In this document: positions 23,390 to 46,921 of the stretch, in pieces | How positions within the stretch are numbered: the first letter of the stretch is position 1 | Layout: the number at the start of each line of letters is the position of its first letter | Source of the DNA: Dehalococcoidia bacterium | Lineage (GTDB): Bacteria > Chloroflexota > Dehalococcoidia > SZUA-161 | Assembly: GCA_011174795.1 (NCBI GenBank) | Contig: DUEY01000036.1 | Span: 1 to 49,456 of the forward strand | Length of the DNA: 49,456 nucleotides | Reading direction: 5' to 3' | Notes under the pieces: model-generated | What the model was told of the DNA's origin: nothing | The model's database searches: none | What the model saw: only the letters and a program-made list of their open reading frames with translations | Position numbers and translations under genes: made by a program

Positions 23390-24076
23390 CTAATAATTCC
23401 TCCGATTCATTTTTGAATCCTTCAAATGCCTGACCTCAGCCTCCATGTTCCTCACCGATACGCTCCCTTTGAGCAGGATGATAAACAGTAATGTGAAAGC
23501 AGCAACGCTGACCAGCAGTGTCAGTAGCATAGATGATACGAGGTCGCCGACCAATGCCGGTGGATGGTGGGTCCGCCACAGGTGAATAGCCAGATAGACA
23601 ATAGGTACATCGATGAAGCCGACGATACCCAGAACCGCGGCGAATCTCGCCCCCCGGGATTCCTCGGTAGCAAAGCCGCGCACCAGTAGATAGGCAACGT
23701 ATGTCAGCCAGAGTACAAGGGTCGCTGTCAGCCGGGCATCCCACGTCCACCACACCCCCCATACAGGCCTTGCCCAGATAGGCCCTGTAATCAGAACCAG
23801 CGTGGTGAACACTACCCCAAGCTCCGCCGACGAGCGGGCAACAGTATCCCACCTGACATCCCGCTTCCAGAGGTAGAGGATGCTGCATATAAAGACCACG
23901 AAGAACGCCAGGAATGCGACCCAGGCCAGTGCCACATGGAAGTAGAATATACGCTGAACGTCGCCCATTGCCTCCTCCGTGGGCGCATATATGAATACCA
24001 GATAGAGGGCGGCTATCATCAGGGCACAGCCGAGCCCGAGCAGGATATTGCTCAGCATCACGCTCCTTTCCCTCAT
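23390..24076 (-). CDS. ccmC: Heme exporter/transfer protein CcmC
   Basis: 228 residues, six hydrophobic helices. The tryptophan-rich signature VWGVWWTWDARLTATLVLWL (residues about 112-131) is diagnostic, with QRIFYFHVALAWVAF (conserved His) near residue 45 and a second conserved His in VYLAIHLWRTHHP near 175. CcmC loads heme onto CcmE at the outer face of the membrane in system I cytochrome c maturation. Start ATG 24076 has GGAGG seven bases upstream; an internal ATG six codons later also has AAAGGAG. It follows ccmB by 37 bases. Confidence 0.96.
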   Translation of the reverse strand: MRERSVMLSNILLGLGCALMIAALYLVFIYAPTEEAMGDVQRIFYFHVALAWVAFLAFFVVFICSILYLWKRDVRWDTVARSSAELGVVFTTLVLITGPIWARPVWGVWWTWDARLTATLVLWLTYVAYLLVRGFATEESRGARFAAVLGIVGFIDVPIVYLAIHLWRTHHPPALVGDLVSSMLLTLLVSVAAFTLLFIILLKGSVSVRNMEAEVRHLKDSKMNRRNY

Positions 24077-24113
24077 CAGGCAACCTCCGTTATTAGCCGC
24101 GACTCCGCTGCTG

Positions 24114-24788
24114 CTACTCCTCGATAACGAACTCGAAGACCAACACCGATACTACCAGAAAGATGATATCGAAGGCTACTAGTATCTGAAGCCAGGTTGA
24201 CATATCGCTCCAGGCGCCGCCGTCCAGCACCACACCGGTGGCTTTTACCGCTGCGATCAGCACGGGAACGACAACAGGCAGGAAGAGTATAGGAAGCATT
24301 ATCTCCCGCGCCTTTGTATGAGCCGACAGCGCGGAAAACAGCGTGCCCACCGAAGTAAATCCCACCGTTGCCAGCACTATGATCAGTGCCAGCCTGGGTA
24401 AACACAAAGGCAGGTTGAAAAGGACGAGGAATATCGGCGTAATGATTGCTGCAACGACCAGCATGAAGGTGAAGCTGCCCGCCAGCTTCCCCAGATAAAT
24501 AACGTACCGCTCAACCGGGCAGAGCATCAATCCCTCGAGACTGGAGTTCTCTTTCTCTGTCGCAAAGGTATGGTTCAAGCCGAGCACCCCGGCGAAGGTG
24601 AAAGCCACCCATAGAATGCCAGGTGCAACGAGTCCTATAGTATCCTCCCCGGATTCAAAGGCGAAGTTGAAGATGACCACCACCAGCAGGGCAAAGACGA
24701 GAACCGATGTGGCAACTTCCTTGGTGCGGAGCTCCGAGAGGAGGTCTTTCCAGAAGATAGCGAAGACCCTGGTGAATAGTTCCCTCAT
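24114..24788 (-). CDS. ccmB: Heme exporter membrane subunit CcmB
   Basis: 224 residues with six hydrophobic segments and CcmB-type sequence: ELRTKEVATSVLVFALLVVVIFNFAF at the start, APGILWVAFTFAGVLGLNHTFATEKENSSLEGLMLCPVERYVIYLGKL, and LLPILFLPVVVPVLIAAVKAT. CcmB is the permease partner of the CcmA ATPase in the CcmABCD complex. The start overlaps the ccmA stop by four bases (ATGA), indicating translational coupling. Confidence 0.95.
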   Translation of the reverse strand: MRELFTRVFAIFWKDLLSELRTKEVATSVLVFALLVVVIFNFAFESGEDTIGLVAPGILWVAFTFAGVLGLNHTFATEKENSSLEGLMLCPVERYVIYLGKLAGSFTFMLVVAAIITPIFLVLFNLPLCLPRLALIIVLATVGFTSVGTLFSALSAHTKAREIMLPILFLPVVVPVLIAAVKATGVVLDGGAWSDMSTWLQILVAFDIIFLVVSVLVFEFVIEE

Positions 24789-25522
24789 CTCCTCATTCCC
24801 GTGCAGCGGTCGTAAATTTCCGGAAAAGCCGCTGCATCTATCTCCTGTTTTACCTCTTGATAGACGACCACGCCCTCGTGGAGAATCAGCACCTGGTCAG
24901 CGAGCTCTAGGCCGCGCGCCAAGTTGTGCGTGGTCATCACGACAGTGCGCTCCCCAGAGGTGAAGTGCTCCAGTACAGCTCGCATCATCACAGTGGCGTG
25001 GGGGTCAAGTCCTGTCTCCGGTTCATCGAGGAGCATGACCGGCGGATCATGGAGCACCGCCCTTGCTATGGCAACCCGCTGCTGCATGCCGCGTGACAGC
25101 GTCCCCACCCGGTCATGCAGCCGCGCTTTAAGCTGCACCTGAGAGATTACCTCCTCTATGCGCCGCTCCAGATTCGCGAGCCCATACATCTTGCCGTAGA
25201 ATCTCAGGTTCTCGCTAACCGTGAGATGAGGATACAGGAAGGTAGAATGGCTGACTACTCCCAACTTGCTGCGGCTCTGCTCGGGAGTCTTACGGATATC
25301 CAGACCATCCAGCAGCACGCTTCCGCCAGACGGCTTTGACAAGGTAGAGAGCAGTTTGATCAGTGTCGTCTTCCCCGCACCGTTAGGGCCGAAGACAGTA
25401 AGGTGGTCGCCCCGCTTAACCTTGAGGTCAATTCCCGCGAGAGCAGGTATATTGCCGAATGACTTAGCAAGCCCATGTGTCTCAATAGCCCATGGGGTAG
25501 GGGAAAGGTCACCTTCAGCCAC
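24785..25522 (-). CDS. ccmA: Heme exporter ATP-binding protein CcmA
   Basis: 245 residues. ABC ATPase with Walker A GPNGAGKTTLIKLLSTL, signature LSRGMQQRVAIARAVL, Walker B PVMLLDEPETGLDP and the switch His in VVMTTHNLARG. CcmA uses ATP to release heme-loaded CcmE. Start is GTG 25522: it overlaps the upstream stop (GTGGCTGA) and has GGGAG six bases upstream, whereas a GTG eight codons earlier would lie well inside the upstream gene. It belongs to the ccmE-F-(zinc ribbon)-(membrane protein)-A-B-C-D operon on the minus strand. Confidence 0.95.
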   Translation of the reverse strand: MAEGDLSPTPWAIETHGLAKSFGNIPALAGIDLKVKRGDHLTVFGPNGAGKTTLIKLLSTLSKPSGGSVLLDGLDIRKTPEQSRSKLGVVSHSTFLYPHLTVSENLRFYGKMYGLANLERRIEEVISQVQLKARLHDRVGTLSRGMQQRVAIARAVLHDPPVMLLDEPETGLDPHATVMMRAVLEHFTSGERTVVMTTHNLARGLELADQVLILHEGVVVYQEVKQEIDAAAFPEIYDRCTGMRR

Positions 25523-26678
25523 TGGTCTCTCCCTTACCTTTCTCACTACGCATCATTTCAAGCAACTGCGCCTTCTTCTCCGAACGCATCCGCCGATATG
25601 TATTTTCGTCGATTGCCCCTTGCTCAAACTCGTCATCCAGTTGAGCTATCTCCCTCAGCAATCGCTGCTTGTGCGTCTCGCTCTCCCTTTCCACGTGCGG
25701 CGTCGCCTTTATTCCCTTAACTCCCAAAACGGCGATAACGATAATGAGCAGAACAACAACGAGCCAGAGAATCACTGTAGTTGCATCGACTCCCCCTGAT
25801 ATGCGGGAAAGACGAATATCCAGATCAGTGCCACGGGGGAGTTCCTCTCCCTGAAGATGTATGAATTGCTCCCCGGTATCAGCCTCCACCGGCCCCGCCA
25901 GCGTCAACCGGTTGCTGGCAACCTCAACGTCATCACCCATAACCATAACATTGAAGCTGTCAGTGGGATAATTGACCTTAAGCAGAATGGTAGCATCGCC
26001 CGAACCAGAGAACGGCAGCCTGTACGAGTAACTCCACTCTCTATAGCCAGGCGGAAAAGGTAGAGTATCGGCAAATGTACTATTGCCCAGGAATATGCAG
26101 TCCTGTATTAAATCCTGCGGGGCCTCGAAATCAACCGCTCCCTGCGGTAGAGTGAAGACCAGCGTTCCGGTTCCTTCATCAGTGGCATTTTCCTCCGACC
26201 CGACATATGTCCGGTCGCCATCGTTCGAGAACATGAAGTATTCCGATACCCAGAGGCTACTATCTTCCATATATATGACTGCATGTGATTGAGCCACCCG
26301 AATAGTCTCATCGCTGGTCGTCGTTTCGCATACCGGCACCTCGACAAAGGTAATTGTCTCATTCTCTCCGAAAATAACCAGGCTATAGTAGTCCACGCCC
26401 AAGTAGTGAGCCGAGACCAGGTACTCATAGCCGGGACCAGTTTCAAGGCTGGAAAACGTAAATCCGCCCTGGTCATCGGTTACGGTGATTTTAATGTCTC
26501 CCAGCGCATCATCTACATAGGTAATCAAGAGAACATCGATACCGGATACGTTTCCACCCCCAGCGGTTCCATTGATTACCGTCCCATTGATTTCGCCATC
26601 CAGGGTGCCCTGGGCAATAGCCATCCCCGACAGACCTAAGAGGAACAGCACACTACATATGGCAACAAGTTTCCTCAT
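25515..26678 (-). CDS. Exported membrane-anchored protein of the ccm operon, function unknown
   Basis: 387 residues from ATG 26678, preceded by AAGGGA. N-terminal signal peptide (MRKLVAICSVLFLLGLSGMAIAQ), then a beta-rich extracytoplasmic region with a carboxypeptidase-regulatory-like fold: TVINGTAGGGNVSGIDVLLITY, TDDQGGFTFSSL. A single transmembrane helix lies at about residues 303-325 (VILWLVVVLLIIVIAVLGVKG), followed by a cytoplasmic tail with a SHOCT/CcmI-like helical segment (LLREIAQLDDEFEQGAIDENTYRRMRSEKKAQL). No CxxCH or thioredoxin motif. It sits between the zinc ribbon gene and ccmA, with overlap at the ccmA start. It might take part in apocytochrome handling, replacing CcmH/CcmI, but that is inference from position. 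Confidence 0.8.
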   Translation of the reverse strand: MRKLVAICSVLFLLGLSGMAIAQGTLDGEINGTVINGTAGGGNVSGIDVLLITYVDDALGDIKITVTDDQGGFTFSSLETGPGYEYLVSAHYLGVDYYSLVIFGENETITFVEVPVCETTTSDETIRVAQSHAVIYMEDSSLWVSEYFMFSNDGDRTYVGSEENATDEGTGTLVFTLPQGAVDFEAPQDLIQDCIFLGNSTFADTLPFPPGYREWSYSYRLPFSGSGDATILLKVNYPTDSFNVMVMGDDVEVASNRLTLAGPVEADTGEQFIHLQGEELPRGTDLDIRLSRISGGVDATTVILWLVVVLLIIVIAVLGVKGIKATPHVERESETHKQRLLREIAQLDDEFEQGAIDENTYRRMRSEKKAQLLEMMRSEKGKGETSG

Positions 26679-26695
26679 TGCTTCCCTTACAAGAC

Positions 26696-26953
26696 CTACG
26701 TACTTAGGCTCGCCCCACACTCAGAGCAAAATTTATCCCTCGAATCGCATCTCGCGCCGCAGCTCGGGCAGACCTTATCCACAACATCTTCCGCAGCTTC
26801 GCTGCGACCCTTTCGTAACGCCCGTATCCGCTTCTCCAGCTCCTCATCAAGAGCCTCATCTCCCGAAACACTCTTGGCTCTCGACCTGAAGAAGGGATAG
26901 GCAATAAAGATAGCCGCAATGAGACCTAATAGAATACCCAGTGGAACAGTCAT
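26696..26953 (-). CDS. Small membrane protein with zinc ribbon in the ccm operon
   Basis: 85 residues. One N-terminal membrane helix (MTVPLGILLGLIAAIFIAYPFF), a charged helix (DEELEKRIRALRKGRSEAAEDV) and a C-terminal zinc ribbon CPSCGARCDSRDKFCSECGASL with two CxxC pairs. The membrane-plus-helix half resembles the N-terminal part of CcmI-like proteins. Start overlaps the ccmF stop by four bases (ATGA), so it is co-translated with ccmF. Confidence 0.8.
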   Translation of the reverse strand: MTVPLGILLGLIAAIFIAYPFFRSRAKSVSGDEALDEELEKRIRALRKGRSEAAEDVVDKVCPSCGARCDSRDKFCSECGASLST

Positions 26954-28920
26954 GTTACACCCGCCTCAGAGCCAGACTGGCGCTTTCGATCAGGCCAGAA
27001 GGCTACGAGCCCTCCTAGAAGGAGAAACCCTCCCCCAACCCACATCCAGACAATCAGGGGATTGACTAGCACTCTGAAGGTAGCAGACTCGTCCCCCGGC
27101 TCAAAGCTGGTCCATGATAACGAGACGAACAAGTCCTCGGCAGGAGTGGTTCGAACCGCTACTTCGGCGAAGGGCTCCATCCAGCTAAACCAGTAGTTAT
27201 ACTCCGGCCGCACCGTATCGATGAGCTTGCCGTCCCTGCTTATAGAAAGAGAGGCAACGGCGCTCACTTTCGAGCTACCCTCCCGCATGTCTAGAGCATC
27301 ATATGACAACTCGTACTTCCCGACTGTCATCTCCTCCCCGATATCGAGCGTCTCCATACCTTCTAATCCGTAGAAGGATGAGCCGATGACGCCGAGTGTT
27401 ATTAGAATAATGCCTATATGAACTATAAATCCGCCGTACCGGGGCCTGTTACTCCCGATCAATCTAAGGAATGCCCCGGCATAATATCCCCCGGTAGCGC
27501 GCCGTCTTGCTCTCGTCCCCAGTAACCATTCCCGCATAATAGTGAAAAGCGGGAAGCCACATACCAGCGCTGCAAGGGCGTACCAGTTTCCGATGCCAGA
27601 AATGAGGACAGCTATAGCGATAATCACGGCTGGAAACAGGGTATACAATAAGTTCCATCCTATAGACTTCAACGATGCTTTCCGCCACCTTAACGTTGAG
27701 CAAACTCCCATGAAGAATACGAGGAAAAGCATAACAGGCCCGCATGACCAGTCGAAATAGTCTCGTTCCAGAGCTATCTCACTACCCCCCAGTCCCTCAA
27801 CAATCCGCGGCAGGATCACGCCTGTAATGATAAGGAATACAAGAACAAGGAATATGACGTTAGTGAGAAGGAAGGCGCCCTCCCTGGAGATAGGCGATAA
27901 TGGCTTATCTTCTTTCCCGAAATCCCTATGGCGAGCATAGAGCAGTACCACCGATCCTACCAGCGTAACCACGATAGCGCCCAGAATATAAGGAGGATAA
28001 TTCGAAGCGTAGAATCCGTGCAGCGGGGACTCGATACCGCCGTGCGTAATAAAGGGGCTAAGCAGGACAAAAATAAAGGTTACTATGATGAGCGCCAGCC
28101 CCCATGTGTGGAGATAATGTCGCTTTCGCAGCATCGCAACCGAGTGGAGAAAAGCAGTCCCCAACAGCCACGGCATCAGACCGGCATTCTCCACCGGGTC
28201 CCATGCCCAATACCCTCCCCAACCCAGCTCGATATATGACCACCACATTCCTACCAAGTTGCCTATGCCCAGCACACACCATGCAAAGAGAGTCCAGCGC
28301 CGGATTCCCCCAATCCACTCCATACCGGGACGACGGACTATAAGCGCTGCCATAACGAAAGCAAACACAACAGTGAATCCGGCAAAGCCCAGGTATAGCA
28401 ACGGGGGATGTATCAACATGCCGACATTCTGGAGAAGCGGGTTCAAGCCGAATCCATCCACGGGAGGGTAAGGATTCTCCTCGAACACGTTTACCACAAT
28501 CGTGACCAGCGCCAGGAAAAATGCCAGAATGACCGCAAGGATGGAGATAGCGCAGGGCGTAATCTGCTTGTAAGAATTATATTTCTGCAGCGCCAGCACA
28601 GCGGCGAACAACGAGAGCAACCATCCCCAGAAAAGAACCGAGCCAGCTTTATCGGCATACAAGGCGCTGAAAGCATATACCGCCGGAAGGTCTCTGCTGG
28701 CGTGTTCCGTTACTATCCTGAGGCTGAAATCCTTGCTCATAAAAGCATAGAGCATGGCCGCCATGGCCAAGGTATAAAGGACAGCAACTACGAGTAAACC
28801 GTTTCGAGCACTTGCAGTGAAGGCATGGGAACCACTGCGAGCTCCCCACGCTGAGGCTAGCGCGGTATATACAGCCGCTATAAAGCATAATATGAGGGCG
28901 ATATGCCCTGTATCTACCAT
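26950..28920 (-). CDS. ccmF: Cytochrome c heme lyase subunit CcmF
   Basis: 656 residues, at least a dozen hydrophobic helices. The heme-handling WWD-type signature GWGGYWAWDPVENAGLMPWLLGTAFLHS (residues about 232-259) is unmistakable, with flanking conserved His residues such as NVGMLIHPPLLYLGF and LLSPFITHGGIESPLHGFY. CcmF passes heme from CcmE to the CXXCH motifs of apocytochromes in the periplasm or pseudoperiplasm. It is followed by the zinc ribbon gene and preceded by ccmE with an eight-base gap. Confidence 0.97.
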   Translation of the reverse strand: MVDTGHIALILCFIAAVYTALASAWGARSGSHAFTASARNGLLVVAVLYTLAMAAMLYAFMSKDFSLRIVTEHASRDLPAVYAFSALYADKAGSVLFWGWLLSLFAAVLALQKYNSYKQITPCAISILAVILAFFLALVTIVVNVFEENPYPPVDGFGLNPLLQNVGMLIHPPLLYLGFAGFTVVFAFVMAALIVRRPGMEWIGGIRRWTLFAWCVLGIGNLVGMWWSYIELGWGGYWAWDPVENAGLMPWLLGTAFLHSVAMLRKRHYLHTWGLALIIVTFIFVLLSPFITHGGIESPLHGFYASNYPPYILGAIVVTLVGSVVLLYARHRDFGKEDKPLSPISREGAFLLTNVIFLVLVFLIITGVILPRIVEGLGGSEIALERDYFDWSCGPVMLFLVFFMGVCSTLRWRKASLKSIGWNLLYTLFPAVIIAIAVLISGIGNWYALAALVCGFPLFTIMREWLLGTRARRRATGGYYAGAFLRLIGSNRPRYGGFIVHIGIILITLGVIGSSFYGLEGMETLDIGEEMTVGKYELSYDALDMREGSSKVSAVASLSISRDGKLIDTVRPEYNYWFSWMEPFAEVAVRTTPAEDLFVSLSWTSFEPGDESATFRVLVNPLIVWMWVGGGFLLLGGLVAFWPDRKRQSGSEAGVT

Positions 28921-28928
28921 CTACTGTC

Positions 28929-29312
28929 TCATTCTTCAGGCACGTATTTCGAGGGGCATTTTAACAGAATACTCTCAGCTCGAAATATTCTATCGGAGTG
29001 ATATCTCCCCTCAACCATGACATCGGCGCCGGCCTTGAAGCCATCCGGCATGGCGCCTTTATAGATAACAGGCAAGCTGGCGTTTCCTTCAACAACGGAA
29101 AATCCAAGCTCAAGCTTCTCAGCATCCCACTCGATAGAGCCCTCAGTTACCTTTCCGGTCACCCTGATATTGGTATCGTAGGTATCACTGCCTTTGTCCA
29201 GAAGTTCACTCACTGTGACATAGTATATTGCCGAACTGCTCAGTGCCATGTAAATCAGGTAACCCACTGCGGCTACCAGAACGATACCCCCGATAAGATA
29301 TCTCTTTTTCAC
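28929..29312 (-). CDS. ccmE: Cytochrome c-type biogenesis heme chaperone CcmE, CXXXY variant
   Basis: 127 residues: an N-terminal membrane anchor (KKRYLIGGIVLVAAVGYLIYMAL) and an OB-fold domain (TNIRVTGKVTEGSIEWDAEKLELGFSVVEGNASLPVIYKGAMPDGFKAGADVMVEGRY-type sequence, residues about 50-112). The heme-attachment motif near the C-terminus is CPSKY (Cys-x3-Tyr) instead of the standard HxxxY, so heme would bind covalently through cysteine. CXXXY CcmE proteins are known from archaea, some sulfate reducers and Gram-positive bacteria and are reported to go with absence of CcmH, matching the lack of ccmG/ccmH here. It is the first gene of the minus-strand ccm operon. Confidence 0.94.
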   Translation of the reverse strand: MKKRYLIGGIVLVAAVGYLIYMALSSSAIYYVTVSELLDKGSDTYDTNIRVTGKVTEGSIEWDAEKLELGFSVVEGNASLPVIYKGAMPDGFKAGADVMVEGRYHSDRIFRAESILLKCPSKYVPEE

Positions 29313-29649: not shown

Positions 29650-31557
29650 ATGGAAAGAAAATCATGGAGTAAGCTTGTATTGATAATAGCGTTAATGCTG
29701 CTGCTTATCAGCATGCCGCTACTCGCTGCCTGCGGGGGAGAGGAGGAGGAAGAGCCTACACCAACAGCTACAGCTGTGCCGACAGCTCCGCCAACAGCAG
29801 CAGTATCAGAGTTTGACGTAGTCAAAGACGCCGTTGCTGCATATGTCGCCGACAAGGCCGAAAACATCAAGGCAGGCGACCTCAACGACCTGATTAACTC
29901 CGGCGACGCGCCGTACCTCATCAGCCTTCGGAGCGCCGATGACTTCGCCAAGGGCCACATCACCGGCTCAGTTAATATAGCTTTCGGCGACCTGTTCAAG
30001 GCCGATACACTTGCTACCCTGCCCGACGAGGACATCGTTACCTACTGCTACACCGGACAGACAGCCTCCATGGCAGCCGCCCTGCTCGGTACTTTGGGAT
30101 ACGATGTCCAAAACCTGCTGCACGGTATGTGCTCCTGGACCAGCGACGAGACGGTACTCGCCGGCAAGTGCTTCAACCCCGCAGCAGACCAGAACGACTT
30201 CGCGGTCGAGACCACCGTCAACACAGCCACCGAGACCTACGACTACCCAACCCTAGATAACACCGCTTCCAACGACGAGGACGACATCCTCCAGGCTGCC
30301 GCCGCGTCTGTTTCAACGGCGTATATAACCGCGAGCGACCTCAACGACATGATCAACTCGGGCGATGCACCATTCATTATCAGCTGCCGCAGCGCTGAGG
30401 ACTATGCCAACGGGCATATCCCCGGTGCAGTCAACATCGGCATCGGCAGCATCGCCGATAACCTGGACAAGCTGCCCCCGGACGAGACAATCGTTGTATA
30501 CTGCTACACCGGCCATACCGCCGCCCAGGTAACCGCCCTACTCAACATGCTGGGCTACGACGCCAAGAGCCTCAAGTTCGGTATGTGCTCCTGGAGCAGC
30601 GACGAGACTGTACTCGCCGGCAAGTGCTTCGACCCCGCAAACGACCAGAACGACTTTACTGTCGCGGGCGGGGCAGTATCAGAATCAGAATTCGACGTAG
30701 TAAAAGATGCCGTCGCGGCATACGTGGCCTCCCCAGCCGCGAACATCAAGGCAGGCGACCTCAACGACCTCGTCACCGCCGATGAAGCACCCTACCTCAT
30801 CAGCCTTCGCAGCGCCGATGACTTCGCCAATGGGCATATCACCGGCTCAGTAAACATAGCTTTCGGCGACCTGTTCAAGACAACCACACTTGATACCCTG
30901 CCCGACGAGGACATCGTTACTTACTGCTACACAGGGCAGACAGCCTCCATGGCTACCGCACTGCTTGGTACTTTGGGATACGATGTCCAGAACCTGCTGC
31001 ACGGAATGTGCTCCTGGACCGGTGACGAGACGGTACTCGCCGGCAAGTGCTTCAACCCCGCAGCAGACCAGAACGACTTCGCGGTCGAGACCACCGCCAA
31101 TACAGCCACCGAGACCTACGACTACCCGACTCTCGATAACACCGCCTCCACCGATGAGGATGACATCCTCCAGGCTGCCGCCGCGTCTGTTTCAACGGCG
31201 TACATCACCGCCGGCGACCTCAATGACATGATTAACGACGATGAGGCGCCCTTCATCATCAGCTGCCGCAGCGCTGAGGACTACGCCAACGGGCATATCC
31301 CCGGCGCGGTCAACATCGGCATCGGCAGTATCGCCGACAACCTGGATAAGCTGCCTCTGGACGAGACAATCGTCGTATACTGCTACACCGGCCATACCGC
31401 CGCCCAGGTAACCGCCCTGCTCAACATGCTTGGCTACGATGCCAAGAGCCTCAAGTTCGGTATGTGCTCCTGGAGCAGCGACGAGTCAATAAACGCGGGC
31501 AAGTGCTTCGACCCCGCAAACGACCAGAACGACTTTATGTTCGACTCAGGGGCCTAG
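29650..31557 (+). CDS. Lipoprotein with four tandem rhodanese domains
   Basis: 635 residues. N-terminal lipoprotein signal ending LLAAC (Cys28), then an acidic and Thr/Pro-rich linker (EEEEEPTPTATAVPTAPP) to about residue 50. Four rhodanese domains follow, with active-site loops CYTGQTA (Cys133 and Cys426) and CYTGHTA (Cys285 and Cys578). Each domain adds two more cysteines, GMCSW and GKCFxP, about 25 and 40 residues on. The order is A-B-A-B: an A+B pair of 293 residues is duplicated exactly. Rhodanese Cys loops accept a sulfane sulfur or bind oxyanions of Se/As. The protein would be anchored outside the membrane. It is the first gene of the selenocytochrome cluster; in Geobacter a rhodanese-like lipoprotein (ExtH, from memory) neighbours the ExtKL cytochrome. 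Ribosome site AGGAGG. Confidence 0.93.
   Translation: MERKSWSKLVLIIALMLLLISMPLLAACGGEEEEEPTPTATAVPTAPPTAAVSEFDVVKDAVAAYVADKAENIKAGDLNDLINSGDAPYLISLRSADDFAKGHITGSVNIAFGDLFKADTLATLPDEDIVTYCYTGQTASMAAALLGTLGYDVQNLLHGMCSWTSDETVLAGKCFNPAADQNDFAVETTVNTATETYDYPTLDNTASNDEDDILQAAAASVSTAYITASDLNDMINSGDAPFIISCRSAEDYANGHIPGAVNIGIGSIADNLDKLPPDETIVVYCYTGHTAAQVTALLNMLGYDAKSLKFGMCSWSSDETVLAGKCFDPANDQNDFTVAGGAVSESEFDVVKDAVAAYVASPAANIKAGDLNDLVTADEAPYLISLRSADDFANGHITGSVNIAFGDLFKTTTLDTLPDEDIVTYCYTGQTASMATALLGTLGYDVQNLLHGMCSWTGDETVLAGKCFNPAADQNDFAVETTANTATETYDYPTLDNTASTDEDDILQAAAASVSTAYITAGDLNDMINDDEAPFIISCRSAEDYANGHIPGAVNIGIGSIADNLDKLPLDETIVVYCYTGHTAAQVTALLNMLGYDAKSLKFGMCSWSSDESINAGKCFDPANDQNDFMFDSGA
29812..31557 (+). 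repeat. Two-copy tandem duplication, period 879 bases, inside the rhodanese gene
   Basis: Copy 1 is 29812-30690 and copy 2 is 30691-31557. Active-site TGC codons lie at 30046 and 30925 and at 30502 and 31381, each 879 bases apart, so there is no net indel between them. Long stretches around the GKCFNP region and its flanks are identical in both copies, while other parts have many silent changes. Confidence 0.85.
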
Positions 31558-31664: not shown

Positions 31665-32972
31665 ATGAAAAGGTTATTCTTGCTAGCTATAGGGTTCCTT
31701 TTCCTGATTACATTCGCTGCCTCCGGCTGCATCGATGATGTTGTCAGTCCGTCCCCGGGAGTCGAGGTAATAAGCGCCTGCGTCACCTGCCATACCGACA
31801 AAGAGGTTCTCCAGGAGCTTGCCGTGGAAGAGGAAGAGGAGGAATCCGAGGCAACAACGGGTGAAGGCTGAGGGGGCGATTTGCCTCCGTTGGAGGCATG
31901 GGAAAAGGTCTACATCGACGGCGAGGATTTCCTCGAGGATACACACAACAAGATGGGCTGCGTGGTCTGCCACAGTGGAGATAACACGGCTGAAGACATG
32001 GAAAGCGCTCACATCGGCCTAATAGCCGACCCGTCCGAGGACAATTGCAACACCTGTCATAGAGAGATATTTGAAAAGAACGAGACCAGCCTTCACACCA
32101 CACTCAGCGGGTTCATATCAGCTCTTGAAGCAAGGGGCGGTAATCTTGAGGAGGGCTCCCCGCTCGCCACAGCCTTCGAGAACCACTGCCAGCAGTGTCA
32201 TCTCTCATGTGGTCAATGTCATGTCAGCCGGCCAGATGAGGCCGGCGGTGGTTTCCTGTCAGGTCACGAGTTCAAGAGTACACCGAATATGAAGAACAAC
32301 TGTGTCGCCTGCCACGGTTCCCGTGTCGGCGATGAATTCCTGGGTGAGAATGAAGGGGTTCCCAAAGACGTCCACAGGAAAAAGGGCATGCAGTGCTCAA
32401 GTTGTCACGGGCAGGAACTACACGGCTCCGGAGAGCTTGCCGAAAGTCGTTATCATACCACTACAGCGGTGAGTTGCACAGACGCAGGCTGTCACGATGA
32501 CCTCTATGACACCGCCGACAGTAACCCTCAGCACGAGCAGCACCTCGAAGACCTCGCCTGCCAAGTTTGCCATGCGGTCGATTATAAACACTGCTACAGT
32601 TGCCACGTAAGCATTGACGAGCAAGGCATACCCTGTCGAACCAGCGAGCCGTCAGTAATGGACTTCAAAATCGGGCTTAACCCCCTTAAGTCAGCCGAAA
32701 GGCCTTACGACTATGTGGTGCTGAGGCATGTGCCGACATGCCCTGACGAATGCGTCTACTACGGCGAGAATCTGCTTCCTGATTTCGATGCCCAGCCAAC
32801 CTGGAAGTATGCCACGCCGCATAATATCCAGCTGAACACTCCGCAAAACGCCAGTTGTGATTCCTGCCATGGTAACGCAGAGCTGTTCCTTACCGAGGAA
32901 GATTTGAGGCCCGGTGAGGTAGAGGCGAATCAAGGCGTGATAGTTCCAGAGATTCCTAATCCGTCATATTAA
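31665..32972 (+). CDS. Multiheme cytochrome c lipoprotein with predicted selenocysteine (TGA at 31869-31871)
   Basis: 435 residues if the in-frame TGA is read as Sec69. Start ATG 31665 has GAGGCGG five bases upstream (an ATG at 31647 has none). The signal peptide ends ASGC (Cys22, lipobox-like). Heme motifs: CVTCH before the TGA; CVVCH, CNTCH, CQQCH, CGQCH, CVACH, CSSCH, CQVCH, CYSCH, CDSCH and one CX4CH (CTDAGCH) after it, 11 in all. Sec lies after an acidic stretch in GEG-Sec-GGD, not in a CxxU motif. The part after TGA is in the same frame, has no signal peptide of its own and starts a hairpin 10 bases downstream (31882-31898), so reading through is favoured over two proteins or a broken gene. 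From memory, it resembles the multiheme (seleno)protein ExtKL. Next genes: Tat-exported ferredoxin and cytochrome b. Confidence 0.8.
31882..31898 (+). promoter_or_regulatory. Bacterial SECIS-like hairpin in the multiheme cytochrome gene
   Basis: Stem TGCCTCC (31882-31888) pairs perfectly with GGAGGCA (31892-31898), loop GTT. The loop starts 17 bases after the TGA (31869-31871) and has a G in its first position, as bacterial SECIS elements require. Confidence 0.7.
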
Positions 32973-32993: not shown

Positions 32994-33866
32994 ATGGAAC
33001 TGAAGCGACGGGATTTCCTGAAAATCTCTACGGGGGCTGCGGGCCTGGTTCTATTGCAGCCCTCCAATATTGATAAAGTATGCGAGGCTGCCGAGAATTC
33101 ATCCAATGAAGACCTGGCGATGCTGGTGGATGTGTCCAAATGCATCGGCTGCTGGTGGTGTTACGTTGCCTGCAAGCAGTACAATGGCCTCCCCGAAACA
33201 GCCACACCCAAACCCGATGACCCGCCGCCGCTTGCTCCTGACACATGGACAACGCTCTTCACAAAAAAGCAGGGCAACACGTGGAAGTTCAGAAAGCAAG
33301 CCTGCATGCACTGTACCGACGCAGCATGCGTAAATGTTTGTCCTACAGGGGCTCTCAGCCACAACAAGCTGGGATTTGTCCAGTACGAGCGAGACAAGTG
33401 CTCCGGCTGTGGATATTGCTCTCAGTATTGCCCCTTTGAGGTTCCCCAATTGCAGACCAACAAGGTAAGCGGTGACGCCCTGATGGATAAATGCACCTTC
33501 TGCATAGACCGTGTTACCAACGGACAGCAGACTGCCTGCTCGGAGGCCTGCCCGACGGGAGCGATTTCGTTCGGCAAACGCAAGGAACTGCTGGAGGAAG
33601 CCAGCACAAGATTAGCAGAACTACAAAAGACCAATCCCGATGCCTGCCTCTATGGTGCGAACGAGTTAGGCGGCCTGCATGTAATGTATATACTTGAAGA
33701 ATCTCCCGAAAAACAGGGCTTGCCAGCCGACCCGAAAGTACCAGCCGCCGCTATGGTGCACGATGTTTTCCAGTGGCTTGGGGTTGGGGCTGTAGCGGCA
33801 GTACTCGCCGGTTTCGGGCTGAATTACCTGGTCGCTCGGGCCAGGATAGCCAAAGAGGAGAAATAA
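32994..33866 (+). CDS. Tat-exported four-cluster iron-sulfur protein (FdnH-like)
   Basis: 290 residues. A twin-arginine signal MELKRRDFLKISTGAAGLVLLQ precedes the mature protein. Ferredoxin motifs for four 4Fe-4S clusters: CIGCWWCYVACK, CMHCTDAACVNVCP, CSGCGYCSQYCP and CTFCIDRVTNGQQTACSEACP. A C-terminal membrane helix (VGAVAAVLAGFGLNYLVARARI) would anchor it next to the cytochrome b. It is a paralogue of fdhB at 38385, but fdhB has no Tat signal of its own and travels with FdhA. This copy has no molybdenum catalytic subunit in its cluster, so its partner is likely the multiheme cytochrome 22 bases upstream. Direction of electron flow is unknown. Confidence 0.9.
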   Translation: MELKRRDFLKISTGAAGLVLLQPSNIDKVCEAAENSSNEDLAMLVDVSKCIGCWWCYVACKQYNGLPETATPKPDDPPPLAPDTWTTLFTKKQGNTWKFRKQACMHCTDAACVNVCPTGALSHNKLGFVQYERDKCSGCGYCSQYCPFEVPQLQTNKVSGDALMDKCTFCIDRVTNGQQTACSEACPTGAISFGKRKELLEEASTRLAELQKTNPDACLYGANELGGLHVMYILEESPEKQGLPADPKVPAAAMVHDVFQWLGVGAVAAVLAGFGLNYLVARARIAKEEK

Positions 33867-33868
33867 TC

Positions 33869-34516
33869 ATGGAAGCGCGAACGGTAGAGCGTTTTAAAAA
33901 GCGAACGATATGGTTCCACTGGATACACACAGCAGCCTTCCTGCTATTGATAATCACCGGCGCAATACTGTTTTTCCCCGGCTGTGGCGGTGCAGCTGCA
34001 GGGGGCGCTACCAGAATCATTCATCACATCGCCTCTGTCATATTCATAGGAGGAGCAATACTATACATCCCGTTGAACCCCAAGAGGGCGCTCCAGTTTG
34101 TAAAAGACACCCTCACCTGGGGCAAGGACGACATTGGCTGGCTCCTGGCAGCGCCGGACTACTACTTCGGAGGACCCGAGGATAAAATGCCTCCTCAAGG
34201 TCATATCAACACCGGTCAGAAGATGTGGCAGGCAGTCGTCCTGGGCACAGGTGTGGTGTTTCTGGTAACAGGAGCGATAATGTGGTTCGCCAGAGGCAGC
34301 ATATCGGAGGGTGTCTTCCAGTGGTGCATGGTCATACACGGTCTCGCCTTTATAGTCGCGCTTGCCATGCTTTTCGTACATATCTATCTGGGCGCTCTTC
34401 ATCCAAGAATGACTGAATCACTCCGCTCTATGCTAAATGGTAAGATTTCCCCAAAATATGCCAAGCATCACTACGGGAAATGGTACGAGGAGTCCTTAAA
34501 GGAAGAGAAGGACTAG
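33869..34516 (+). CDS. Membrane cytochrome b subunit (FdnI/FdhC-like)
   Basis: 215 residues from ATG 33869, two bases after the ferredoxin stop. Four hydrophobic helices and the family His residues: FHWIHTAAFLLLIITGAILF, IIHHIASVIFIGGAIL, VVLGTGVVFLVTGAIMWF and WCMVIHGLAFIVALAMLFVHIYLG. Conserved loop DDIGWLLAAPDYYFGGPEDKMPPQG and the C-terminal HYGKWYEE sequence. It would bind two hemes b and exchange electrons with the quinone pool. Clearly homologous to the 39196 protein of the FDH operon. Last gene of the cluster; a terminator follows at 34546. Confidence 0.92.
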   Translation: MEARTVERFKKRTIWFHWIHTAAFLLLIITGAILFFPGCGGAAAGGATRIIHHIASVIFIGGAILYIPLNPKRALQFVKDTLTWGKDDIGWLLAAPDYYFGGPEDKMPPQGHINTGQKMWQAVVLGTGVVFLVTGAIMWFARGSISEGVFQWCMVIHGLAFIVALAMLFVHIYLGALHPRMTESLRSMLNGKISPKYAKHHYGKWYEESLKEEKD

Positions 34517-35151: not shown

Positions 35152-38100
35152 ATGGAACTAAGCCGCAGGGAGTTTCTCAAAGCAAGCGGGGCAGGGATGG
35201 GGGGGCTTGTCCTGCTTGGTGCCATGGGTTCCGAAAAGGTTCCCAGAGCCATCCCCCTCAAAAAAGAACCCCTCGGTGAAACGTACACCATATGCTGCTA
35301 TTGCGGCGTCGGCTGTGGCGCACTCGCGACCGCTGCCGGCGGAAAGGTCATAAATGTCGAGGGGAATCCAGACCATCCCATCAACGAAGGTACCCTTTGC
35401 TCCAAAGGACAGGCATTGGCCCAGTTCCGAACTGTTGACGGGGAGGACAACCCCAACCGCCTGACCAAGCCTCTCTATCGCAGGGCTGGAGGAACAGCGT
35501 GGGAGGAAAAGAGCTGGGATTGGGCCATCACTGAAATCGCAAAGAGGATAAAGAAGACCAGGGATGATAACTGGATATCGACGGTAAACGTCGGCGGTAC
35601 CGACTACACGGTCAACCGCACCGATGCCATCGCTCACTTCGGCGGTGGCGAACTGGATAACGAAGAATGTTATCTCCTGGTCAAGTTGACCCGAGCTCTC
35701 GGGATGGTGTATATCGAACACTGCGCCCGAATATGACACTCCGCTACTGTAGCGGCTCTGGCAGAGTCGTTCGGCAGGGGAGCAATGACCAACCACTGGA
35801 TCGATCTCAGGAACTCCGACCGCATCATGATTATCGGCTCCAACGCGGCGGAGAACCACCCCATCTCCTTCAAGTGGGTCACTGCAGCGAAGGAACGCGG
35901 AGCGAAACTCATCAGCGTTGACCCGCGTTTCACCCGCACCTCATCCAAAGCCGATATCTACGCACCGATGAGGTCGGGATGCGACATCACGTTCATCGGC
36001 GGCATGATAAGGTACATCCTAGATGATATGCAGAAGTCAAGCCCGTCGGAGCGCGCTGAGAAGTACAACATGACCTATGTGACGCAGTACACCAACGCCG
36101 CTCTGATAATCAACAATAGCTTCGAGGGCGCTTTGGAATCCACCCATCCCGGGCTGTTCGGCGGGTATACCGCTTCCAAGAACGGGACTCCGGGAATCCT
36201 CGGTTCATATAACAAGTCAACCTGGAACTATGCGGACTCCACAACCCCTGCTTCAGACCCGGCGCTGGTGAATAATACATGGACCGCGTGGGAGGACCTG
36301 GACTCCAAATGCGTACTCAGGCTGCTTTGGGAGAACTACAAGGACTACACTCCTGAGAAGGTAGAGGAGATCACGGGATGTCCCAAGGATAAGTTCCTCG
36401 AGGTCGCTCAGACCTATGCGGAATCGGGAGCACCGGGCAAGGCAGGTACCATAATGTATGCCATGGGCACCACCCAGCATACCTATGGTACGCAGAATAT
36501 CAGAGGCTACGCCATCCTCCAGCTCCTGCTTGGTAATATCGGCATCGCCGGCGGCGGCATCAACGCACTGAGGGGGACGTCAAATGTACAGGGGTCCACC
36601 GATATGTGCCTCCTGTCCCATATCCTCCCCGGCTATCTGCAGGTGCCGATACATACAGACCAGAGCCTCGACGACTATATCGCCAGGGCTAAGAAAGGCA
36701 AAGATTTCATCACACCCCAGGGCCTGGCAGGCGATAAGTCGGCAAGCTGGTGGTGGTACAACGATGCCGACCCCAACTACAAGAAATACCTCGTCAGCAT
36801 GCTCAAGGCATGGTATGGTGATAACGCGACTGCGGCCAATGACTTCGGATTCAACTATCTGCCCAAGGTGACAAGCGGCGATGACTACACACACATCGGC
36901 ACCTTCGAGGCGGTGGCCGCTGGAATCGTCAAGGGTATGCTGGTATGGGGCCAGAACCCGGCAGTCGGCGGGCCTGACTCCGAAGGCGAGCGCAAAGCCC
37001 TGGAGAAGCTCGACTGGCTGGTGGTCAGCGACCTTTTCGAGACAGAGACAGCGGCCTTCTGGAAGAGAGGCGGAGCCAATCCGGGAAGTATTAATACAGA
37101 GGTCTTCCTGCTGCCTGCTGCATGCTCCTACGAAAAGCAGGGCAGCATCTCTAACAGCGGACGCTGGGCACAGTGGCGCTGGAAGGCCCTCGAGCCGATC
37201 GGACAGGCTAAACCCGACTTGGAGATCGTAGATGAACTGGCGCTCAAGCTCAAGGAACTCTACACCAGTGAGGGTGGAGAGTTCCCCGAGGCCATAACCA
37301 AGCTGTTCTGGGACTTCCGCGAGGGCGCTGCCGAGGCTGACCCGAATATAGCGGCTAAGGAGTTCAACGGCTACGACTGGACCACCAAGACCGCGCTCAC
37401 CAGCTTCGGCAATCTAAAGAGCGACGGTTCCACCTGCTCGGGCAACTGGCTCTACTGCGGCATGTTCGATGCAAATGGCAATAACAAGGCCAAGCAGCAC
37501 GACCCGGTTGACAAGAGCCTGAACCAGATCGGCCTCTATTCCGGCTGGACATGGTGCTGGCCCATAAACAGGCGCATAATCTATAACAGGGCCTCGGTTG
37601 ACCTCGATGGAGAGCCCTGGGACAAAGACCATCCCGTGATAAAGTGGACCGGTTCGATAACCAAATGGGCCGGTGACATCGCCGACGGCGGCTGGAATCC
37701 GATCAACCTCTCCGCTGAAGGTGCCAAGTACCTTCCCTTCATCATGCACCGTGAGGGTGTGGGGAGAATCTGGGGCGACGGCCGAGCCGAGGGACCTCTA
37801 CCTGTTGCTTACGAGCCATGGGAAAGCCCTCTGGAAACGAACCTGTTAACCGGTGTGGAAGATACAGAAGCTAATGGAACCCCGGGATTCAACGACCCCT
37901 GCTGCTACATCGGCAAGATGGAGATGGACGGCCAGGTCTGGAACGAAAGGGGAACCCCTGATAATTACCCCTACGTCGGCATGACCTACAGGCTGACGGA
38001 ACACTGGCAGGCGGGACAGATGACTCGCAACCTCCCCTGGCTCATCGAGCTCCAGCCGCAGCCGATCGCCGAGCTTGACCCGGTACTGGCAAGTCAGAAG

Positions 38101-38385
38101 GGAATCGAGAGCGGCGACATAGTCGAGGTAAGTACCGCCAGAGGCTCCATCGATGCAGTGGCCATAGTGACCAAGCGCTTCCAGCCACTGACAATCGGCG
38201 GTAAAACGGTCCACCACGTGGGGGTTCCCTGGCACTGGGGGTACACTGGCCAGTGTACAGGCATCAGTCCCAACGGGAGCAGCGGCAATGTGCTCACCCC
38301 GCACGTGGGGGATGCCAACACAACGATACCTGAATATAAAACCTTCCTGTGCAATATAAAGTACGTTAGGAAGGGAGGCGAATAA
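35152..38385 (+). CDS. fdhA: Formate dehydrogenase catalytic subunit, selenocysteine (TGA at 35734-35736)
   Basis: 1077 residues with Sec at codon 195, close to Sec196 of E. coli FdnG. Tat signal MELSRREFLKASGAGMGG; one 4Fe-4S site in YTICCYCGVGCGALATAAGG; Sec in HCARI-Sec-HSATVAAL, the standard active-site motif, then GRGAMTNHW directly after. Molybdo/tungsto-bis-MGD domains follow: VDPRFTRTSSKADIYAPMRSGCDITFI, GTTQHTYGTQNIRGYAILQLLLGNIG, and a C-terminal MGD-binding domain with SGDIVEVSTARGS. It oxidises formate to CO2 on the outer face of the membrane and passes electrons to FdhB and FdhC. A SECIS-like hairpin lies 14 bases after the TGA. The frame is continuous on both sides of the TGA, so the apparent split is recoding and not a mutation. 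Confidence 0.96.
35751..35771 (+). promoter_or_regulatory. SECIS-like hairpin in fdhA
   Basis: A 9-bp stem (35751-35759 with 35763-35771, including two G-U pairs) and loop GGC. The loop begins 23 bases after the TGA and has G in the first position. A second, shorter stem (35741-35755) overlaps it and is less well placed. Confidence 0.65.
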
Positions 38386-43148: not shown

Positions 43149-44549
43149 GTGAGCAACATACAAGGCGAGTTCCGCCGTCTCCCGAGCGTGGACAGGCTAA
43201 TGGCCGAGGACAGGGTCAGGGAGTTGCAAGATACCTATCCCCACGACCTGCTGGTAGACCTGATTCGACAGCAACTGGAACAGGAGCGTGCATCAATCGC
43301 CCTCGGCAATCCTTGCCCTTCTCTACATGAACTCGTAGAGTCGGTTTACGCCCAGGCGCAGGCGCTGGCATCAGCCAGCCCCAGCCCCGTGATAAATGCC
43401 ACCGGGGTCATACTCCACACTAACCTCGGCCGCGCACCGCTCAGCGAAGAAGCGCTCGCCGCCATGGAGCTGGCGAGCAAAGGTTACTGTGACCTCGAGT
43501 TCGAGCTCGACACTGGAATCAGGGGGCACCGCAATATCCATATCGAGCGTATGCTCTGCCAGCTAACGGGAGCCGAGGCCGCGCTGGTGGTGAACAACAA
43601 TGCCTCCGGCGTACTGCTCGGCCTTACCGCGCTCGCTAAGCGGAAAGAGGTAATCGTTTCCCGGGGGCAGGCGGTGGCTATCGGCGGCGGCTTTCGCATC
43701 CCGGAGGTAATGAGGCAGAGCGGTGCCAAACTGGTAGAGGTGGGCACCACCAACGTTACCTCTGCTCAGGATTTCGAACAGGCGATCAGCCCGCGGACGG
43801 CGGCGCTGCTGAGGGTCCACTCCAGCAACTTCAGGATAGTGGGGTTCACCGAGAGCGTTACCCTCGAGGAGTTGGTTGGACTGGGTAACCGTTACGACCT
43901 GCTTGTGCTCGATGACCTGGGCAGCGGCTGCCTGCTCGATACCACGTTGTTCGGCCTCGACCCCGAGCCCACAATGCAGCAAAGTATCTCGGCCGGCGCC
44001 GACCTTGCTTTCTCCTCAGGCGATAAGCTTCTCGGCGGGCCCCAGGCAGGGATAATAGTCGGTAAGAAACACCTCGTCGATAAGCTGAAGCGGCATCCCC
44101 TGGCGCGGGCGGCGCGAATCGATAAAACGAGGCTGGCAGGATTGAGAGCCACGCTCATTCCCTACCTGAAGGGGGAAGCGTTAGAGAAAATACCGGTGTG
44201 GCGCATGATAGCCACACCGCTCGACGAAATGGATAGGCGAGCCAAAAAGTGGGCGGGCGCGCTTGGCGACCTCGCCCAGGTGATAGACGGTGAGAGCATG
44301 GTCGGAGGAGGCAGCCTTCCCGGCGGCACACTGCCCACCAGGCTTGTCGCCATCGGCAAACAGGTTAAGAAGAGAGAGCGGAACACAGCGCAGCTAGTAG
44401 CCCAGAGCCTCAGGTTACAGGCTCCGCCTGTCGTGGGCCGGCTCAGTGGAAACGTTCTACTCCTCGACCCGCGTACCGTCCCCCCACAGGAAGACCAGGC
44501 TGTTATCGAGGCACTTCGCAGCGCAGTCGCCGGCATACAGTCTGGCTAA
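43149..44549 (+). CDS. selA: L-seryl-tRNA(Sec) selenium transferase SelA
   Basis: 466 residues from GTG 43149. SelA converts Ser-tRNA(Sec) to Sec-tRNA(Sec) with selenophosphate and PLP. Motifs: RRLPSVDRLMAEDRVREL at the start, NATGVILHTNLGRAPLSEEAL, CDLEFELDTGIRGHRNIHIERMLCQLTGAEAALVVNNNA, LVLDDLGSGCLLD and FSSGDKLLGGPQAGIIVG, whose Lys carries the PLP. The 38-base gap after tatC contains no terminator, so it may be part of the same transcript. It serves the two Sec-containing genes here. Confidence 0.97.
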   Translation: MSNIQGEFRRLPSVDRLMAEDRVRELQDTYPHDLLVDLIRQQLEQERASIALGNPCPSLHELVESVYAQAQALASASPSPVINATGVILHTNLGRAPLSEEALAAMELASKGYCDLEFELDTGIRGHRNIHIERMLCQLTGAEAALVVNNNASGVLLGLTALAKRKEVIVSRGQAVAIGGGFRIPEVMRQSGAKLVEVGTTNVTSAQDFEQAISPRTAALLRVHSSNFRIVGFTESVTLEELVGLGNRYDLLVLDDLGSGCLLDTTLFGLDPEPTMQQSISAGADLAFSSGDKLLGGPQAGIIVGKKHLVDKLKRHPLARAARIDKTRLAGLRATLIPYLKGEALEKIPVWRMIATPLDEMDRRAKKWAGALGDLAQVIDGESMVGGGSLPGGTLPTRLVAIGKQVKKRERNTAQLVAQSLRLQAPPVVGRLSGNVLLLDPRTVPPQEDQAVIEALRSAVAGIQSG

Positions 44550-44573: not shown

Positions 44574-46439
44574 ATGTTTGTACTCGGCACCGCAGGGCAC
44601 GTGGACCACGGCAAATCGGTATTGGTTGAGGCATTGACCGGTATAGACCCCGACCGGCTCCGCGAGGAGAAAGAGCGGGGCATGACCATCGACCTCGGCT
44701 TCGCCTGGCTCAAGCTGCCCAGCGGACAGGAGGTAGGCATCGTCGACGTCCCCGGGCATGAGCATTTCATCAAGAACATGCTCGCCGGTGTCGGCGGAAT
44801 CGACATAGCCCTGCTCATCGTCGCCGCCAATGAAGGGGTAATGCCGCAAACGAGGGAACATCTCGACATCCTCAACCTGCTGGGAGTGAATAAAGGTATC
44901 GTAGTCATAACGAAAAAAGACCTGGTGGATGAAGAGTTGCTGAGCCTGGTCACCATGGAGATAGAAGAGCTGATAAGCTCTACCTCACTATCAGAAGCGC
45001 CCATCATCGCCGTATCCGCAGTAACGGGTGAGGGCTTGCCCGAACTTGTTGCCGCCATCGACAAGCTTCTATCCGCCACCCAGCCCCGAGCGGACACGGG
45101 CAGGCCGAGGTTACTTATAGACCGCGTCTTCACCATAGCCGGCTCGGGAACCGTGGTCACCGGGACGCTGATCGACGGCTCGTTGCAGGCGGGGCAGGAA
45201 GTTGAAATTGTGCCCTCAGGCTTGAAATCGCGCCTGCGGGGGCTGCAAACACACCAGACCCGCATCGATACCGCTGCCCCGGGAAGCAGGGTCGCCGCCA
45301 ACCTGACCGGCGTCGCTACCTCAGAACTCAAGCGGGGGGATGTGCTCACCAGGCCAGGCTGGCTGACCCCTACCACGATGGTAACCGCCAGGCTCCGCCT
45401 GCTTCTCTCGGTGAAGCGCCCGCTTCGCTACAACGCTTACGTCAGCCTCCACACGGGCTCCAGCGAGATGATGGCCAAGATCCGCCTGCTTGATACGGAT
45501 GAATTGAAGCCCGGAGAAGATGCCTGGGCTCAACTGACGCTCAACAAGCCAGTAGCGGTAGTCAAGGGAGACCGCTTTATAATCCGTTCTCCGCAGGATA
45601 CACTGGGCGGGGGCGAGATAGTCGAAGCACACACCAAACGGCATCGCCGCCACCGTAACGCTACCATTCAGAGCCTGGAGACCAAGGAGAAGGGCTCAGC
45701 GCAGGATGTTCTCATAGCCACCCTCGAGGCAAGCCAGCCCCAGGAGCTGGGAAAGCTCATCCTCAGCTGCGGTCTGCCCGATAAAGAGGCGAAGCAAGCA
45801 ATAGAAGGCCTGCGCCAAGACAAGATGGTAGTTGATATCGGTGTAGGAGAGCACCGTCTTCTCTTTACCGCTTCCGGCTGGGAAAGCTTGCTGGAAAACG
45901 TAAAGGCCGCGGTGCATGAATATCACCGCAGATTCCCGGCCCGGCCGGGGATACCCAGAGGGGAACTGGGCAATAAGGTGCAGCTACCCGCCGCCTATTT
46001 CACTACCACTTTGAACAAGCTCATCGACGAAGGCATCCTCATCGAGGAAGGTGGAGCCGTCCGTCTGCCCTCGCATCAAATCCAGCTTACCAGCGACCAG
46101 CAGGCTAAGGTCGATGCCTTCCTCGAATCCCTGGTGAAAAATCCCTACTCTCCGCCCACCGACCTTATGCCCGATGCTGACCTGCTCAACGTACTTGTCA
46201 AAGAGCGCCGCGTGGTCAAGGTGAGCGATGGCGTGGTTTTTTCCGCCTCAGCCTACGATGAAATGGTGAAGATAATAACTGAGCACATTAAGGAGCATGG
46301 TAAGATAACGCTGGCCGAGACACGGGACCTGCTTACCACCAGCCGCAAGTATGCCCAGGCCCTGCTGGAATACCTCGACCAGAAGAAAATAACCCGCCGT
46401 GTGGGTGACGAACGGGTACTGGGGCCGGGGAGTCATTAA
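44574..46439 (+). CDS. selB: Selenocysteine-specific elongation factor SelB
   Basis: 621 residues. EF-Tu-like GTPase start MFVLGTAGHVDHGKSVLVEALTG (G1), ERGMTIDLGFAWL (G2), DVPGHEHFIKNML (G3) and TKKDL (G4). Then two beta-barrel domains (RVFTIAGSGTVVTGTLIDGSLQAG), and four C-terminal winged helices, the last with LAETRDLLTTSRKYAQALLEYLDQKKITRRVGDERVLGP, that bind the SECIS hairpin. Length matches bacterial SelB. Begins 25 bases after selA. Ends 10 bases from the converging dockerin gene. Confidence 0.97.
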   Translation: MFVLGTAGHVDHGKSVLVEALTGIDPDRLREEKERGMTIDLGFAWLKLPSGQEVGIVDVPGHEHFIKNMLAGVGGIDIALLIVAANEGVMPQTREHLDILNLLGVNKGIVVITKKDLVDEELLSLVTMEIEELISSTSLSEAPIIAVSAVTGEGLPELVAAIDKLLSATQPRADTGRPRLLIDRVFTIAGSGTVVTGTLIDGSLQAGQEVEIVPSGLKSRLRGLQTHQTRIDTAAPGSRVAANLTGVATSELKRGDVLTRPGWLTPTTMVTARLRLLLSVKRPLRYNAYVSLHTGSSEMMAKIRLLDTDELKPGEDAWAQLTLNKPVAVVKGDRFIIRSPQDTLGGGEIVEAHTKRHRRHRNATIQSLETKEKGSAQDVLIATLEASQPQELGKLILSCGLPDKEAKQAIEGLRQDKMVVDIGVGEHRLLFTASGWESLLENVKAAVHEYHRRFPARPGIPRGELGNKVQLPAAYFTTTLNKLIDEGILIEEGGAVRLPSHQIQLTSDQQAKVDAFLESLVKNPYSPPTDLMPDADLLNVLVKERRVVKVSDGVVFSASAYDEMVKIITEHIKEHGKITLAETRDLLTTSRKYAQALLEYLDQKKITRRVGDERVLGPGSH

Positions 46440-46824: not shown

Positions 46825-46921
46825 TGGCGGGAGCGAATGGGAGTCGAACCCACCAAGGACATTTCTGATGCCCCTCAACGGGTTTGAAGCCCGCGAGGCC
46901 CACCGGGACCCTGTCGCTCCC
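46825..46921 (-). tRNA. selC: tRNA-Sec, anticodon TCA
   Basis: 97 bases with the special bacterial tRNA-Sec shape: an 8-bp acceptor stem (GGGAGCGA with TCGCTCCC), 6-bp D stem (GGGTCC/GGGCCT with loop CGGT), anticodon loop CTTCAAA (plus 46883-46889, TCA at 46885-46887), a long variable arm, 5-bp T stem with loop TTCGACT, discriminator G and encoded CCA (46827-46825). It recodes the TGA codons of fdhA and the cytochrome. It lies next to selB but on the opposite strand, with the dockerin gene between. It has its own promoter at 46940-46968. Confidence 0.96.

Follow-up and report, generated by a model that had tools for sequence, protein, structure and literature searches.

The gene described here, located on a 49,456-nucleotide stretch of DNA from a Dehalococcoidia bacterium (hereafter the window), almost certainly codes for an 11-heme c-type cytochrome lipoprotein with selenocysteine (Sec) inserted at residue 69. 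This reading is based on sequence comparison, above all on an in-frame TGA that 77 of 83 homologues, spread over at least two classes of Chloroflexota, share at a single homologous codon, and on a covarying hairpin just behind it. Additionally, good evidence, albeit from few independent losses, suggests that this Sec and a multi-domain rhodanese encoded next to it act together.

The reading frame opens with ATG at 31665 and closes with TAA at 32970-32972 (Table 1). As had been claimed in a sequence-only reading of the same DNA, its internal TGA (31869-31871) lies between the first heme motif and the ten others. The lipobox-like stretch LITFAASGC ends in C22 and is followed by ten CxxCH motifs at residues 39, 99, 128, 175, 182, 213, 244, 299, 310 and 398. 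Heme 8 (residue 271) is of CX4CH type here and in the nearest relative; since more distant relatives display CxxCH at this site, 11 hemes were counted. With an export signal and several CxxCH motifs, the protein passes as a multiheme c-type cytochrome. Ten histidines outside these motifs are well conserved (H94, H116, H144, H174, H201, H237, H253, H293, H355 and H386). Beyond the hemes and the lipobox, no conserved cysteine was found in the mature proteins of the family, which makes an intrachain selenylsulfide of the CxxU type unlikely. A sequence search of the PDB gave no match and the family profile a single weak one (E 1.6e-4), while an AlphaFold2 model built from five sequences reached a mean pLDDT of 30.6, too low for use; a plasmid search likewise yielded no match.

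Table 1 Features of the Sec cytochrome locus and of the Sec machinery, in window positions
Feature	Position	Strand	Basis
Four-domain rhodanese lipoprotein, lipobox LLAAC	29650..31557	+	PF00581, E 4.5e-69, four stretches; sequence; synteny
Predicted Sec 11-heme c-type cytochrome lipoprotein gene	31665..32972	+	435 aa with Sec; TGA read-through translation; 83 homologues
Signal peptide and lipobox-like MKRLFLLAIGFLFLITFAASGC, lipid-anchor Cys22	31665..31730	+	sequence; relatives with lipobox or N-terminal membrane anchor
Heme motif 1 (CVTCH)	31779..31793	+	invariant in alignment A5
In-frame TGA, predicted Sec69, motif TGEG-U-GGDLPPLEAW	31869..31871	+	TGA at homologous column in 77/83 homologues
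bSECIS hairpin TGCCTCC-GTT-GGAGGCA	31882..31898	+	covariation, 95.1% of cells paired; -11.5 kcal/mol; agrees with published bSECIS constraints
Heme motifs 2-11 (aa 99-402), heme 8 = CX4CH	31959..32870	+	
Tat-exported 4Fe-4S protein, HybA/FDH-beta type, putative electron partner	32994..33866	+	
Cytochrome b561-type membrane subunit (FDH-gamma-like), putative quinone module	33869..34516	+	TIGR01583 just below cut-off; ATG 33869
selA	43149..44549	+	TIGR00474, 535.6 bits, above cut-off
selB	44574..46439	+	TIGR00475, 373.5 bits, above cut-off
tRNA-Sec	46829..46921	-	ARAGORN; Rfam RF01852, 75.6 bits

The 83 usable homologues were obtained by sampling the class and the phylum as well as one further class, and nearly all of them stem from draft or metagenome assemblies. 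In one Chloroflexota class, probably Anaerolineae, a relative of the cytochrome is carried by 77 of the 396 genomes sampled. Already the initial full-length homologues, sharing 52-66% protein identity, retained the TGA among the matches listed, and the conserved codon usually stands in the context GxG-U-[GA][GA], as seen in most of the 77 sequences. Because the homologous codon is TGA in so many relatives, chance is excluded as its origin.

The hairpin predicted by the sequence-only reading was recovered in the same form, as a perfect 7-bp stem with loop GTT, starting 10 nt after the TGA and placing 17 nt between UGA and apical loop; it satisfies all constraints of the published bacterial SECIS model (PMC13188914). 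In the 77-row DNA alignment, pairing amounts to 95.1% of cells vs 41-54% for controls slid along the sequence. Both sides of a pair have changed in 32 cells, a result seen in 0 of 500 shuffles. Three pairs show such double changes, namely G-C to C-G or A-U, C-G to G-C and, for the apical pair, C-G to A-U. One of them is coupled to amino-acid changes (PPLEA vs APLEP), and RNA pairing thus appears to drive protein sequence. In two relatives (L130:8098-8157 and L140:6951-7010), the usual hairpin is lost, and in its place a hairpin with loop GGA has shifted to 20 nt after the TGA, which is an apparent case of SECIS turnover.

The same genome holds the full Sec set of selA, selB, selD and tRNA-Sec. 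Three of these genes had been placed near the cytochrome by the sequence-only reading, and they were indeed found about 11-15 kb downstream of it. selD resides elsewhere in the assembly (G000:C36:5960-6886, L170) and carries one in-frame TGA itself, so SelD is probably a selenoprotein. SelB scored above cut-off in 72 of the 80 genomes searched, nearly all of which carry the cytochrome or a distant relative. The window further contains a formate dehydrogenase alpha gene of the fdnG type (35152-38385) with an in-frame TGA (U195, 35734-35736) in the expected U-H context, followed by fdnH, fdnI, fdhE and fdhD; this gene thereby serves as an internal positive control of Sec usage.

That the protein is no selenoprotein at all, owing to a genuine stop or pseudogene, to two separate genes or to TGA being reassigned to another amino acid, is highly improbable. 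A TTG start does follow right after the TGA (ORF 31881-32972), and one relative reads TGG (Trp) at this codon. The part past the TGA, however, has no signal peptide of its own, as previously claimed, and relatives with a true stop and a separate downstream start plus signal, which had been named as the refuting case, were not seen among the homologues. Genetic-code reassignment was rejected, since fdhD, ccmF and ccmE in the window all terminate with TGA. The Trp form is recent and nested on the tree, and TGA and hairpin are kept together in the 77 homologues with compensatory change. Hence, the earlier claim of a Sec-containing 11-heme lipoprotein is well supported.

Sense codons do occur in the six remaining homologues, coding for Trp, Leu, His, Val (two) and Phe, the latter at or near a small deletion. 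Sense codons of this kind had been cited beforehand as a possible sign of sequencing error; they are read here as derived, the most divergent ones lacking the hairpin. On a quick tree, the Sec/sense label requires at least four changes; as 77 of the 83 tips have Sec, the sense codons are read as losses. Of the sense-codon members, only the recent Trp one still has an intact hairpin, which has decayed in the rest. The alignment proposed earlier for deciding between Sec and Cys confirmed the TGA, but cysteine appeared only in a seventh sense gene (G105), which is partial, frameshifted and not part of the 83; no intact Cys homologue was found. Cysteine homologues of bacterial selenoproteins are usual but not obligatory. 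The replacements by Trp, Leu and His indicate that the cytochrome persists without Sec. A simple tie between Sec loss and SelB loss was rejected, as joint loss fits only G774 and G105; SelB is retained in G786, G781, G827 and G972, so that Sec loss was not forced there by loss of the machinery. In one genome (L094, G965:C10), the gene occurs twice at a distance of about 4 kb: one copy has Sec and a rhodanese close by, whereas the other has lost the Sec motif and carries additional hemes. In three more distant relatives (L156, L157 and L158), the linker after heme 1 is shortened and the Sec motif missing, which suggests that the Sec loop may have been inserted or lost as one unit.

The sequence-only reading was silent on the best clue to function, the rhodanese encoded directly upstream of the cytochrome (29650-31557), whose active-site loops read CYTGxTA. 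Of the 70 TGA loci that could be evaluated, 69 are flanked by such a rhodanese gene, vs none of the three evaluable sense-codon loci (Fisher P 6e-5, kinship ignored and only three sense loci scored). It lies upstream of the cytochrome in the majority of clades, whereas one large clade has it downstream. In two genomes, G402 and G931, rhodanese and Sec cytochrome are fused in frame (L075:333-2489 and L102:3350-5206). Whole-genome searches of the sense-codon genomes G786, G774, G827 and G105 returned no multi-rhodanese relative, and in G781 and G972 only short single-domain rhodaneses. Within one genus, a TGA locus (L098) and a TGG locus (L091) are about 85% identical outside a gap of 1,226 bp, and the segment absent from L091 is the one holding the rhodanese gene in L098. 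A divergent Sec member (L076, G402:C524) with the motif ACKG-U-GGY has a cysteine three residues before Sec and no nearby rhodanese.

Quinone-linked modules are recognizable beside 40 of the 83 cytochrome loci and fall into three types: a Tat-exported Fe-S protein with or without cytochrome b, as in the window; an Fe-S protein with NrfD and a 13-heme cytochrome; and a 9-heme cytochrome with cytochrome b and an octaheme tetrathionate-reductase-like protein. As these modules resemble quinone-linked periplasmic systems, the Sec cytochrome probably exchanges electrons with the quinone pool. In the window, genes for cytochrome c maturation (CcmB, CcmC-like, CcmF/NrfE and CcmE; 23390-29312, minus strand) adjoin the rhodanese-cytochrome cluster.

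A possible mechanism, to which we give an even chance, is that the rhodanese passes a chalcogen to a lone selenolate beside heme 1 while the heme chain moves electrons. UGA is in all likelihood decoded as Sec by SelA, SelB and tRNA-Sec, directed by the hairpin just downstream, and Sec, which has no conserved partner cysteine, would occupy a Gly-rich loop that separates heme 1 from the remaining ones. The persulfide of the rhodanese would then donate one atom of sulfane sulfur (or selenium) to the selenolate. Quinol would feed the heme chain via the varying membrane modules, and the chain would reduce the bound atom off as sulfide or selenide, or act in the reverse, oxidizing direction. Sec would be the selenium counterpart of the catalytic cysteine in SoxA/TsdA cytochromes, with the rhodanese as sulfur carrier. 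With 11 hemes and only ten well-conserved histidines outside the motifs, Sec is a possible sixth ligand of one heme, by analogy with the cysteine in TsdA (PMC4423706). A tentative proposal which we hold possible goes further: catalysis would take place at the selenolate of Sec, perhaps bound to a heme, in a novel periplasmic oxidoreductase of sulfane sulfur or selenium, for which the rhodanese is an obligate carrier and cysteine no substitute.

Rather unlikely, in our view, is a purely structural or redox-tuning Sec (axial ligand or metal site) in a cytochrome of extracellular electron transfer, with the rhodanese serving cyanide detoxification or sulfur trafficking and leaving Sec untouched. 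Multiheme and cytochrome b genes do adjoin the locus, one Sec-less relative has histidine at the Sec column, and 11 hemes face only ten conserved histidines outside the motifs, so that one heme may use another ligand. Against such a role, the rhodanese is the one near-constant neighbour, is fused to the cytochrome in two genomes and is lost along with Sec. A role as reductase of selenite, tellurite or another oxyanion, on the model suggested for the Ext cluster of Geobacter and with a selenium-handling rhodanese, appears quite improbable. It could draw on the Geobacter precedent, where rhodanese ExtH is likewise joined to the predicted Sec cytochrome ExtKL and selenite/tellurite reduction is impaired in an extI mutant (PMC5877670), as well as on weak matches of the ExtM model in 19 of 28 members. 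These ExtM scores, however, probably reflect mostly heme motifs (19.4 bits for the window member at a cut-off of 800), and ExtKL itself is not matched.

Multiheme cytochromes with Sec are not new as a class of protein, since ExtKL and one octaheme protein are on record. Among the 119 prokaryotic selenoprotein families and subfamilies of a 2026 inventory (PMC13188914), no entry fits the window cytochrome, and a literature search for a Sec multiheme cytochrome in Chloroflexota found nothing. Its absence from the inventory may be due to the lack of intact Cys relatives, as searches coupling Sec to Cys homologues would overlook such a family. The joint inheritance of Sec cytochrome and rhodanese suggests that these widespread bacteria may respire sulfur or selenium in a so far uncharacterized, selenium-dependent way. 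At the same time, the joint loss of Sec and rhodanese offers a testable lead to the role of Sec in multiheme cytochromes, Geobacter ExtKL included.

One of the closest known systems is the Geobacter cluster extHIJKLMNOPQS, where the gene of a predicted Sec multiheme cytochrome is accompanied by those of a rhodanese, of Fe-S proteins and of a cytochrome b of quinone type (PMC5877670). The ExtKL membership assumed by the sequence-only reading is nevertheless not supported: the curated model NCBIfam NF040886 (cut-off 250 bits) matches none of the 28 members even at E up to 1 and has no hit in the genome either, and ExtKL identity was rejected on this basis. ExtKL is also described as a 5-heme protein in a cluster with porin and Rieske genes, whereas the window protein has 11 hemes and neither gene is among the adjacent ones examined. 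The parallel to the ExtH/ExtKL pairing is striking. Octaheme cytochromes of the tetrathionate reductase family (TIGR04315) are likewise multiheme c-type proteins, one being listed as a selenoprotein, and a TIGR04315-like protein is encoded beside the cytochrome in a number of relatives; the 11-heme family, in contrast, yields a match in only one of 28 members (E 0.036, below the 375-bit cut-off). Multi-domain rhodanese sulfurtransferases (PF00581) share the domain and its loops with the partner gene, which differs in coding for an exported lipoprotein that is co-inherited or fused with the Sec cytochrome. With SoxA/TsdA, finally, the proposed logic is shared, in that a chalcogen residue at a heme holds the sulfur intermediate (PMC4423706). 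There, the catalytic cysteine is a heme ligand, while ligation by Sec is hypothetical here, and the likeness carries no claim of homology.
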